64,000 nucleotides of DNA from the NCBI RefSeq assembly GCF_014898095.1, contig NZ_CP062946.1:2480001-2544000 (forward strand), read 5' to 3'. This document shows, in pieces, positions 1,592 through 23,553 of this stretch; the stretch's first letter is position 1, and every line of letters begins with the position of its first letter. The DNA comes from Thalassotalea sp. LPB0316 (lineage in GTDB: Bacteria; Pseudomonadota; Gammaproteobacteria; Enterobacterales; Alteromonadaceae). Under the pieces are notes generated by a model that did no database searches, was not told the DNA's origin, and saw only the letters and a list, made by a program, of their open reading frames with translations. The translations under genes were made by a program, and so were the position numbers.

Positions 1592-1999
1592 TTATTGATT
1601 GAGCTCCTTTATACACGCTTGTGCAATAAACCCTGATCGCGAAGGATATTCGCCTGAATTGCCAACCCGATCATCAATTTTTCTAATTAATAACTCAGGT
1701 AATGTCACGTTAATCTTTTGACTCTTACCTAAATAGGGCGTGATATCAACTTGGTGCATCCCCCATAGCAAAACGTTTTTTTGAGCAAATTTATGTTGTA
1801 GTTCGATAAAGTCGGTTGAGTGGGGAATGGCTTCACCATATTCGGCAAGAATCGAAAGATGATCGCCAATCGCAATTTTTATTTTCTCAAAACCTTCTTC
1901 AAAATTTTTGGCACTAATTTGACATCCCGGTAGGTCAGGCACACTCACCAACATGGTGTCGTTATCTACGGTCGGTAAAAAGCAAAAAGGGTAATTCAT
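1592..1999 (-). CDS. hicB: HicB-family antitoxin/regulator (orphan)
   Basis: The protein of about 135 residues has the partially degraded RNase-fold HicB domain at the N-terminus (MNYPFCFLPTVDNDTMLVSV, then DLPGCQISAKNFEEG) and a ribbon-helix-helix segment at the C-terminus (KINVTLPELLIRKIDDRVG). HicB proteins neutralise the HicA mRNA interferase and repress their own promoter. An AGGAG Shine-Dalgarno ends directly at a first ATG (2005) and is 6 nt from the second ATG (1999), so 1999 is taken as the start. No hicA-like frame was seen on either side within 500 bp. An array of repeated sites lies just upstream, which suggests autoregulation. It could be a stand-alone regulator rather than part of a toxin-antitoxin pair. 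Confidence 0.85.
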   Translation of the reverse strand: MNYPFCFLPTVDNDTMLVSVPDLPGCQISAKNFEEGFEKIKIAIGDHLSILAEYGEAIPHSTDFIELQHKFAQKNVLLWGMHQVDITPYLGKSQKINVTLPELLIRKIDDRVGNSGEYPSRSGFIAQACIKELNQ

Positions 2000-2023
2000 A
2001 CGCATCTCCTAGTTATTGACTTA

Positions 2024-2053
2024 ATAATAACCCTAATAACTCTAGATAGTCAA
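2024..2053 (-). promoter_or_regulatory. Predicted sigma-70 promoter of hicB overlapping the operator array
   Basis: On the minus strand TTGACT (2053-2048) is followed after 18 nt by TATTAT (2029-2024), 24 bp before the chosen hicB start. The first operator pair (2027-2044) occupies almost the whole spacer between the -35 and -10 boxes. Occupancy there would block RNA polymerase, the usual arrangement for antitoxin autorepression. The prediction comes from inspection only. Confidence 0.5.
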
Positions 2054-2143
2054 CACGTGGTAACCCTGATAACCCTATACTGGTTTGAGTAGATAACCCT
2101 AATAACTCTAACGCAGTGTTCTGCAATAACTCTTATAACTCCA
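2027..2143. repeat. Eight-copy 9-bp operator array with exact 33-bp period
   Basis: Four tandem pairs of a 9-bp direct repeat (consensus ATAACYCTA) start at 2027, 2060, 2093 and 2126, exactly 33 bp apart. Each pair is ATAACCCTAATAACTCTA or a close variant; pairs 1 and 3 are identical over 18 bp. The 15-bp intervals between pairs are not conserved. The pattern suggests repeated dimer-binding sites for a ribbon-helix-helix protein, most likely the HicB encoded 27 bp downstream. Sites did not continue at 1994 or 2159. Confidence 0.8.
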
Positions 2144-2419
2144 TGTGAGTACTTACATTCGCTCATCTATAGCAAAATAATCACCAAAAAACTGGATGTA
2201 GTTTTTTAGGATACGTCTCTGCAGATCAATATAAATGGGAGTTACCAGGGGTTTAGGTGGCTATGGTAAGCTAGAAAATATACGGCAAAGCTGATTGTTG
2301 AATATTATTCAGCTAGTAGCGTTAAGGCACGAAGCAGCTCGCATTTTGTGTGTCTCACAAATCAAATTTAATTCGGATTGTGTATTGGAAGAGGTTTAAC
2401 AGCTTAGGGTAAAAAGCAT
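2144..2419. other. Intergenic stretch with no recognised feature
   Basis: Between the operator array and the pyk terminator I found no coding frame of useful length on either strand, no tRNA and no HicA-like sequence. The longest minus-strand ATG frame I read here ends after about a dozen codons. Confidence 0.5.
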
Positions 2420-21915: not shown

Positions 21916-22305
21916 AATCTCGGTAGTATTTTGAAATAAATATATGCTTTATTTAAATCTTTGCAAATTATCTTGAGAGTCTTATTTATCAAGCGCTCCA
22001 CACTAATTACATTAGAAAATTCACGTTCGCTACGTAAAATCTAATTAATTAGGTGAGGTATTAGGCGTCAGATTTTAAAAAATCGCGCTATTTTGAATGC
22101 CAGATTTTGCGATAACACACATGTTTGATTATTTATTGCTAAATGTGGCGATTGATTTAGCAAGCTACAATATGGGGCAGAATTACATGACTTTTATTTC
22201 CGATATTTGTGAATATCGGAAATATTGAATTAGGGTGATTTATCGCGTATTATCGAGCTTATTTACCATTATCATTAAAAAAATAATAAATCGATAAATC
22301 AACTT
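21916..22305. other. Long intergenic region before the recombinase gene
   Basis: About 390 bp of A+T-rich DNA without a coding frame. It contains one imperfect inverted repeat (ATTAGA near 22012 to TCTAAT near 22046) and the perfect palindrome listed separately at 22195-22224. No clear promoter could be assigned. Confidence 0.5.
22195..22224. repeat. Perfect 13-bp palindrome with 4-bp centre
   Basis: TATTTCCGATATT (22195-22207) and its exact complement (22212-22224) flank TGTG. It lies 81 bp upstream of a tyrosine recombinase. The symmetry suits a repressor operator or a recombinase core site; 11-bp arms around a 6-bp centre would equally describe its inner 28 bp, the geometry of Xer-type sites. 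The sequence does not resemble known dif sequences, and there is no T run for termination. Confidence 0.7.
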
Positions 22306-23553
22306 ATGACATCTTCAATTCCCACACCACGGCCTTTTATCGATAACCTAGAATATCTAGGAAATCCATTTAAAGAAATTACCGTTAAGTTATCTGACCC
22401 GATCACAAAAATTAATAACGTTGAAACTGATTTAGAATTTTGTTTGAAGTTTGTTTATAGCTACAACGGCTCTAAGGCAACCTTTAATAGTTATCGCCGA
22501 GAAATCGAACGGTTAATTCAATGGGCTTGGTTGGTTGAACAGCGCTCAATTACCAGCTTTGTTCGGTCAGATATTGAAGCCTATATCGAGTTTTGTAAAT
22601 CACCACCCAAGCACTGGATCGGCACTAAAAATGTAGCGCGCTTTAAATCTAAAGCGGGTTTGCGTGTGGTTAACCCTGAATGGAAACCTTTTGTTGTTAG
22701 CGTGTCTAAATCCGAATTTAAAGCCGGTAAAGCAGCAAATATTACCAGCTATGAATTGTCTCAGGCTGCGGTTAAAGCCATGTTTACTGCACTTTCGTCG
22801 TTTTACGAGTTTTTGGTTCAAGAAGGTATTTGTGAACATAACCCTGTTGCGTTAATTCGCCAAAAAAGTAAATTTATTCAAAAAGAAACTCGAGCAGAAA
22901 TTCGCCGAATTAGTAATCTTCAATGGGAATATGTTATTGAAACAGCTGAAATTTTAGCTAATGAGAACCCTGAAGAGCACGAGCGGACACTGTTTATAAT
23001 GAATTGCCTGTACGCCATGTATTTACGTGTGTCAGAGCTCGTTGCAGACGAGCGTTCAATGCCAATGATGCAGGATTTTCGCAAAGATCACGATGGTAAT
23101 TGGTGGTTTCACGTATTAGGTAAAGGCAATAAAAACCGAATAATTACCGTCAGTGACGAAATGTTAATGGCGTTAAAACGCTATCGCAATTCACGCAAGC
23201 TCCCTGCTCTGCCAATTCCTGGCGAATATGAACCTTTGGTCACGAGTTTTAAAGGTAAAGGGCCGATCAGGTCGACACGGCAAATTAGAAATATCGTGCA
23301 ATATTGCTTTAATCAAGCGTTTGAGCGAATGAAAAATCATGGTTTAGCCGATGACGCCAACGAACTGCAAGCTGCAACTGTTCACTGGCTGCGCCATACC
23401 GGTATTTCAGAAGATGTTAAACATCGTCCGCGTGAGCACGTTCGTGATGATGCCGGCCATGCCTCGATGGCGACAACTGACCGCTATATCGATTCAGATC
23501 TAAGAGAGCGACATCAATCAGGTAAACGCAAAAAGCTTAAAGACGTTAACTAA
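22306..23553 (+). CDS. Tyrosine recombinase / site-specific integrase
   Basis: The 415-residue protein has a SAM-like core-binding domain (about 40-190) and a catalytic domain with all expected residues: Arg241 (YLRVSEL), Lys273/276 (GKGNKNR), His360 and Arg363 (HWLRHTG), His385 (GHAS) and the nucleophile Tyr394 (TDRYID). An insertion rich in charged residues (100-145) separates the N-terminal helices. It is not next to a tRNA, nor to other phage or plasmid genes, so it may be a lone resident recombinase or an island remnant. No good Shine-Dalgarno is visible. Confidence 0.88.
   Translation: MTSSIPTPRPFIDNLEYLGNPFKEITVKLSDPITKINNVETDLEFCLKFVYSYNGSKATFNSYRREIERLIQWAWLVEQRSITSFVRSDIEAYIEFCKSPPKHWIGTKNVARFKSKAGLRVVNPEWKPFVVSVSKSEFKAGKAANITSYELSQAAVKAMFTALSSFYEFLVQEGICEHNPVALIRQKSKFIQKETRAEIRRISNLQWEYVIETAEILANENPEEHERTLFIMNCLYAMYLRVSELVADERSMPMMQDFRKDHDGNWWFHVLGKGNKNRIITVSDEMLMALKRYRNSRKLPALPIPGEYEPLVTSFKGKGPIRSTRQIRNIVQYCFNQAFERMKNHGLADDANELQAATVHWLRHTGISEDVKHRPREHVRDDAGHASMATTDRYIDSDLRERHQSGKRKKLKDVN

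Follow-up and report, generated by a model that had tools for sequence, protein, structure and literature searches.

Introduction

In the accessible portions of the published descriptions, HicB antitoxins with a ribbon-helix-helix (RHH) domain form tetramers and repress their own promoters (PMC11594946), and their operators are given as palindromic or inverted repeats, one or two per promoter (PMC11594946; PMC10865869). Y. pestis HicB3, with sites BS1 and BS2, and B. pseudomallei HicB, with its palindrome, are RHH proteins that act at or beside the -10 element of the promoter they are made from, with one or two sites and hicA present (PMC11594946, accessible part). Orphan HicBs are common in marine genomes, and orphan antitoxins have been considered possibly regulatory (PMC12654330, accessible part). 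A further point of comparison is pSM19035, whose omega protein (an RHH ParB) binds direct or inverted repeat pairs in parS arrays that lie over its own promoter (PMC9499535, accessible part). In the open-access literature searched, as far as its text was accessible, we found no multi-module HicB array.

Here we analyze such an array in a window of 64,000 nucleotides from the genome of Thalassotalea sp. LPB0316 (contig NZ_CP062946.1, positions 2,480,001 to 2,544,000); all coordinates below are those of the window. As in Y. pestis and B. pseudomallei, an RHH HicB is predicted to repress its own promoter at the -10 element, but the sites here are four direct pairs (three or five in some relatives) at a 33-bp pitch, and hicA is missing. 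We consider it likely that the array is the operator by which a toxin-less HicB represses its own sigma-70-type promoter, with cooperative modules and a second factor.

Results

The gene behind the array is an orphan hicB (positions 1592 to 2005, minus strand) that reads leftward from 2005, so that the array is its upstream region. The 137-aa product, with a partial RNase H fold in its N-domain and an RHH C-domain, belongs to the HicB antitoxin family of RHH type (PF15919, E 1.2e-24). Its nearest solved sequences are 6g1n and 4p78; the genome is close to those of Thalassotalea loyana (HicB 83% identical) and T. eurytherma (77%). In a predicted model with mean pLDDT 86.4, the best 16 PDB fold matches are all HicB chains, with TM scores up to 0.83 for the N-domain and 0.5 to 0.6 for the whole chain, the lower values probably reflecting a different setting of the two domains. 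No HicA family match was found in the Thalassotalea sp. LPB0316 genome, and the hicA beside hicB that makes a hicAB module is therefore lacking. HicA is likewise missing from 23 of the 24 array genomes searched, the sole match (G041) being on another contig, unlinked and with an internal stop; as HicA was also found in just one of six array-negative relatives, its rarity in array genomes says little. Downstream of hicB lie biotin genes and, in many genomes, pepE.

The geometry set out in the earlier note was recovered independently by repeat search. Four 18-mers on the minus strand, each made of two 9-bp half-sites, occupy 2027 to 2044 (module 1, proximal), 2060 to 2077 (module 2), 2093 to 2110 (module 3) and 2126 to 2143 (module 4, the distal end of the lattice), with spacings of 33, 33 and 33 bp. 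The eight half-sites start at 2027, 2036, 2060, 2069, 2093, 2102, 2126 and 2135, as the note had it, and five of them fit its consensus ATAACYCTA exactly, with one mismatch at 2126 and 2135 and two at 2060. The spacers, said to be nonconserved, are 33 to 38% identical among three Thalassotalea-type species, compared with 79 to 82% for the modules. When the window was scanned for four equally spaced 18-mers with a period of 20 to 60, the array scored 91 of 108 (start 2027, period 33); the top score elsewhere in the window was 58, that of 30 window shuffles was 63, and that of 2000 shuffles of the intergenic stretch was 60. With zero or one mismatch, the 18-bp pattern matches only the four array modules in the whole genome, on which ground a regulon of other strong sites in the same genome was rejected; with up to three mismatches allowed, the pattern matches 35 times and the reversed-pattern control 66 times.

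The predicted hicB promoter, also on the minus strand, consists of a -35 element, TTGACT (2053 to 2048), in the spacer that separates module 1 from module 2, and a -10 element, TATTAT (2029 to 2024), that overlaps the last half-site of module 1, with a spacer of 18. A promoter scan of the window returned 2 sites against 2.6 in shuffles, a chance level that proves no promoter alone. The relatives are more informative. Alignment on an exact module 1, possible in 46 of 52 loci, places TANNNT at a fixed distance in 39 of the 46 and TTG at the -35 position in 18 of the 46, compared with one of the 70 other spacers. In the -10 element, the first T is set by the module pattern, and the final T (40 of 45 rows) is independent of it. 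Because of this placement in relatives, module 1 can be put between the -35 and -10 elements, where the first pair had been proposed to lie, with its last half-site forming part of the -10 element itself. The 52-locus counts leave out L077, a hicAB operon, and four copies (L078, L086, L092 and L095).

Conservation of the array was followed from the protein and from the DNA. A HicB match was found in 27 of 98 genomes searched, 23 of them in the window's family (59 genomes). The earlier note had named absence of the repeats upstream of orthologous hicB genes as telling against its reading, and it had suggested a search of related genomes for arrays of 33-bp period; the array is present at 22 of the 23 family loci, the exception being L055 in G030, where the hicB frame is interrupted. 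Among 27 distinct loci (HicB at least 45% identical, with five additional loci included and with L060, L061 and L063, which are copies of L032 to L034, and the hicAB locus L069 dropped), there are one to four exact modules per locus and 95 in total. Of 64 steps between neighboring exact modules, 51 measure 33 bp, 7 measure 32 bp and 6 measure 34 bp; four further pairs of exact modules, 65 to 66 bp apart, each skip a degenerate module, and L041 has an extra half-site past its four exact modules. The exact two-module pattern occurs in 93 of 395 family genomes and in 19 of 52 genera, with one match for the reversed-pattern control (G110) among those listed. A sample of the class gave two matches in 369 genomes, both members of this family. 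The 'array-negative' genomes are negative for the exact pattern, and the hicB search covered 98 genomes. Of the array loci fetched through the DNA pattern, 30 of 30 have hicB within 1.5 kb, one of these (L077) being a hicAB operon. The gene upstream changes from genome to genome, and the array thus goes with hicB.

Two conserved elements beyond the lattice are new here and extend the earlier note. The first is a 12-bp palindrome, GTGAGTACTTAC (positions 2145 to 2156; family form GTRANNNNTYAC), a candidate site for a second factor. The family form, which was defined after inspection of the 27 loci, is found exact in 25 of them, no more than 45 bp upstream of the array. Among 25 further loci, which were not used in defining it and which stem from just two genera (g8 and g38), 22 carry it, separated from the first exact module by 13 to 16 bp. 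Of the remaining three, L096 and L099 have no exact copy there, and the single copy in L100 shares sequence with the first exact module. The gap shrinks to 3 bp, shorter by about one helical turn, in the three loci that belong to the window's genus. Judged from this conservation, the palindrome is probably the site of a second protein at the hicB promoter. The second element is a weak half-site pair of opposite orientation (positions 2238 to 2254, plus strand; two mismatches to the 17-mer), recognized by comparison of loci. An opposite-facing distal pair with at most two mismatches is present in 20 of the 27 loci, with a same-orientation pair in 0 of 27, but in just 5 of the 25 further loci, and it is therefore not general. 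The divergent gene was rejected as its target, since the upstream gene differs between genomes.

To look beyond orphans, we examined the 600 bp in front of hicB at 20 further loci whose HicBs are 23 to 46% identical. A pair of half-sites 9 bp apart occurs at least once in 13 of the 20, with any pair occurring in at most 1% of shuffles. The array, too, has pairs of this family half-site at the hicB promoter, as expected of a HicB operator. HicBs whose RHH strand reads K-I/V-N-V-T have such a pair in 13 of 14 loci; the exception, L181, has the K-I-N-V-T strand and hicA yet no pair within 600 bp. HicB loci without the strand have it in 0 of 6, of which three encode HicBs only 23 to 27% identical and one has a broken frame. 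Because the pair tracks this recognition strand, HicB itself is very probably the protein that binds the half-sites. The half-site goes with HicB and its strand into operons carried by unrelated hosts, by plasmids and by a phage, and hicA precedes hicB in 12 of the 13 pair-bearing loci (eight by family scan and four by annotation).

The operators of these related HicBs have one or two modules, with pairs in direct (ff, rr) or inverted (fr, rf) orientation. Two modules lie over the promoter in seven loci, spaced by 33 bp in L077, L183 and L185, 34 in L069 and L186, 40 in L071 and 42 in L053, so that the 33-bp pitch is present in two-module hicAB operators too and is not confined to orphans. Five of them, in a Dongshaea plasmid (L183), a Buttiauxella plasmid (L185), a Moraxella phage (L186), Alkalilimnicola (L069) and the relative G139 (L077), share with the array the half-site, the 9-bp pairing and the 33- to 34-bp pitch; they differ in having two modules over the promoter, mixed orientations in three cases and hicA present. 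At L077, TTGACA lies between the two modules. The array had been called more elaborate than typical HicB operators, and the comparison bears this out, with four modules against one or two at related HicBs.

The XerD-positive relative G139 carries a complete hicAB operon (L077, 1186 to 1548) with two modules 33 bp apart, an intermediate form of the operator. In the hicAB operon of the Moraxella phage, there is also a third half-site pair, located 38 bp ahead of hicB. For a K-I-N-V-T HicB encoded on a Vibrio coralliilyticus plasmid (L184), we found an inverted half-site pair 102 bp upstream and no adjacent hicA; it may be an independent orphan whose operator has one module.

In a tree of 68 HicBs, the 52 orphans make up one side of a branch with support 100/99, a topology that fits a single origin; all 68 sequences were kept, and the rows labeled hicAB include L184. 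Identity among 44 orphans is 78% in the RHH domain and 47% in the N-domain, and among 13 other HicBs, it is 57% and 46%, respectively, with eight orphan and three hicAB rows omitted from these means because extraction had begun before a stop. The hicAB consensus eA..na.EA, in the first half of the helix at residues 35 to 56, is not preserved in orphan HicBs. As contact with HicA has been assigned to helix alpha 1 of the HicB fold (PMC10865869, accessible part), loss of toxin binding by the orphan is plausible, the lost consensus being a hint only.

Discussion

Taken together, the sequence comparisons suggest that the orphan array is very probably a HicB-family operator enlarged in a toxin-less lineage. 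From these comparisons, we infer binding, the placement of one tetramer per module, cooperativity and the roles of the palindrome and the distal pair. One half-site (RGRGTTRY in the hicB sense) would take one RHH dimer, and a pair 9 bp apart would take one HicB tetramer, a dimer of dimers. HicB on module 1 would block RNA polymerase, as this module takes up the gap from -35 to -10 and its last half-site contributes to the -10 element. Modules 2 to 4, recurring every three helical turns, would add HicB on nearly one face of the DNA, and occupancy would rise cooperatively, giving steep repression. The palindrome is roughly in phase with the lattice, and a second protein bound there would probably modulate the complex; in some genomes the distal opposite pair may join this complex by looping. 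Several points count against this reading. Four modules seem excessive for simple autorepression, and the pairs of the array are direct, whereas known RHH HicB operators are described as inverted or palindromic; direct pairs are nonetheless present in related hicAB operons, and the RHH ParB of pSM19035 binds pairs of either kind. The missing pair at L181, the chance-level promoter scan of the window and the low identity of three of the six HicBs without the strand also weigh against it.

Who binds, and what the binding serves, can be read differently. It is extremely unlikely that the half-sites belong to another transcription factor, with HicB linked to them by position only: the palindrome, as a second conserved element, means that another protein very probably acts at the promoter, but the half-site accompanies HicB and its recognition strand in unrelated hosts, plasmids and a phage. 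An orphan HicB could also be an anti-addiction repressor that silences incoming plasmid or phage hicAB, with the large array holding its own level constant. Silencing of this kind would follow from the reading of the same operator, and plasmid- and phage-borne hicAB operons do have the same K-I-N-V-T-L-P strand and half-site; the presence of HicA in only 1 of 24 array genomes would also fit, but it is found in only 1 of 6 array-negative relatives as well, and we regard this role as very improbable.

The position of the locus raises the question of a chromosomal role. One proposal is that the array serves as a nucleoprotein or centromere-like site close to the terminus of replication, with HicB as the binder and autoregulation as a by-product, as in pSM19035. 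In seven of eight single-contig genomes examined, hicB lies 7 to 55 kb from the GC-skew maximum, but in G015 the distance to it is 79 kb or more, and the combined GC and TA skew maximum is elsewhere, 16 to 80 kb from hicB. There is one array locus per genome among the matches listed, and XerD over the cutoff was found in none of 33 orphan-array genomes (0 of 12 and 0 of 21); it was likewise absent from congeners that have no exact array match (0 of 10). An RHH ParB needs four or more repeats, and parS of pSM19035 has contiguous 7-bp repeats and a ParA partner (PMC9499535, accessible part), whereas the repeats here are 9-bp pairs separated by 15-bp gaps, not the contiguous array of a parS-like site, and no ParA neighbor was identified among neighbors read only as ORF starts. 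The biotin cluster travels with hicB, so that synteny explains the place of the gene. We therefore hold a centromere-like site to be very unlikely. In seven single-contig relatives, hicB falls at 0.48 to 0.51 of the contig, which together with the lack of XerD had pointed to a dif replacement; a terminus link as the cause was rejected in view of the skew distances, the XerD pattern and the biotin synteny. The array as a MatP replacement was rejected as well: none of 32 family genomes, whether they carry the array or not, gave a MatP match, and its absence does not single out array genomes. A related idea is that a former antitoxin has become a DNA organizer of the terminus, with HicB, lattice, palindrome factor and distal pair assembled into a single looped or wrapped complex that would serve the chromosome (its terminus architecture or its segregation, in a clade that lacks XerCD/dif) and not only hicB control; we give this idea, too, very little credence.

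If the array is the operator of a toxin-less HicB, the loci compared here suggest how a toxin-antitoxin operator can grow after toxin loss, from one module, to two modules 33 bp apart, to four accompanied by another conserved element. What becomes of domesticated antitoxins can thereby be tested on a compact promoter fragment. The comparison also predicts a DNA code, GRGTTR pairs 9 bp apart, for KINVT-strand HicBs, including those borne by plasmids and phages.

A separate observation concerns the dif/Xer system. Colwellia psychrerythraea has been listed as being without dif/Xer, and the authors of that study asked whether a substitute exists (PMC2731167, accessible part). The canonical dif pattern is exact in two hicB-negative relatives and in none of eight hicB-positive genomes. 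The window encodes a 415-aa tyrosine recombinase (22306 to 23553) whose gene is 2.6 kb away from the GC-skew maximum. Immediately upstream of the gene is a near-perfect inverted repeat (22194 to 22225), and repeat and recombinase together (22194 to 23553) are a candidate dif/Xer replacement. An upstream inverted repeat is present in 8 of 10 genomes examined with such a recombinase, seven with a TCCG-type core and G008 with TCTAATA; none was seen in G002 and G022. In five of the eight, 0, 0, 1, 0 and 4 of 100 shuffles matched the real repeat. The end of the recombinase gene is 4 to 6 bp from the GC-skew maximum in G042 and G009, and the gene is 11 kb from it in G031 and about 28 kb in G053; the combined GC and TA maximum is elsewhere in these genomes. 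A different tyrosine recombinase, of about 300 aa, is found in the terminus region of G014, G015 and G023 (L115, L163 and L147), with no inverted repeat found beside it; in G014 and G023, it lies 54 and 86 bp from the GC-skew maximum. G008 has no XerD match, though its genus mate G056 has XerC/XerD-type matches, and it encodes a 415-aa-type recombinase with a perfect inverted repeat of 14-bp arms upstream.
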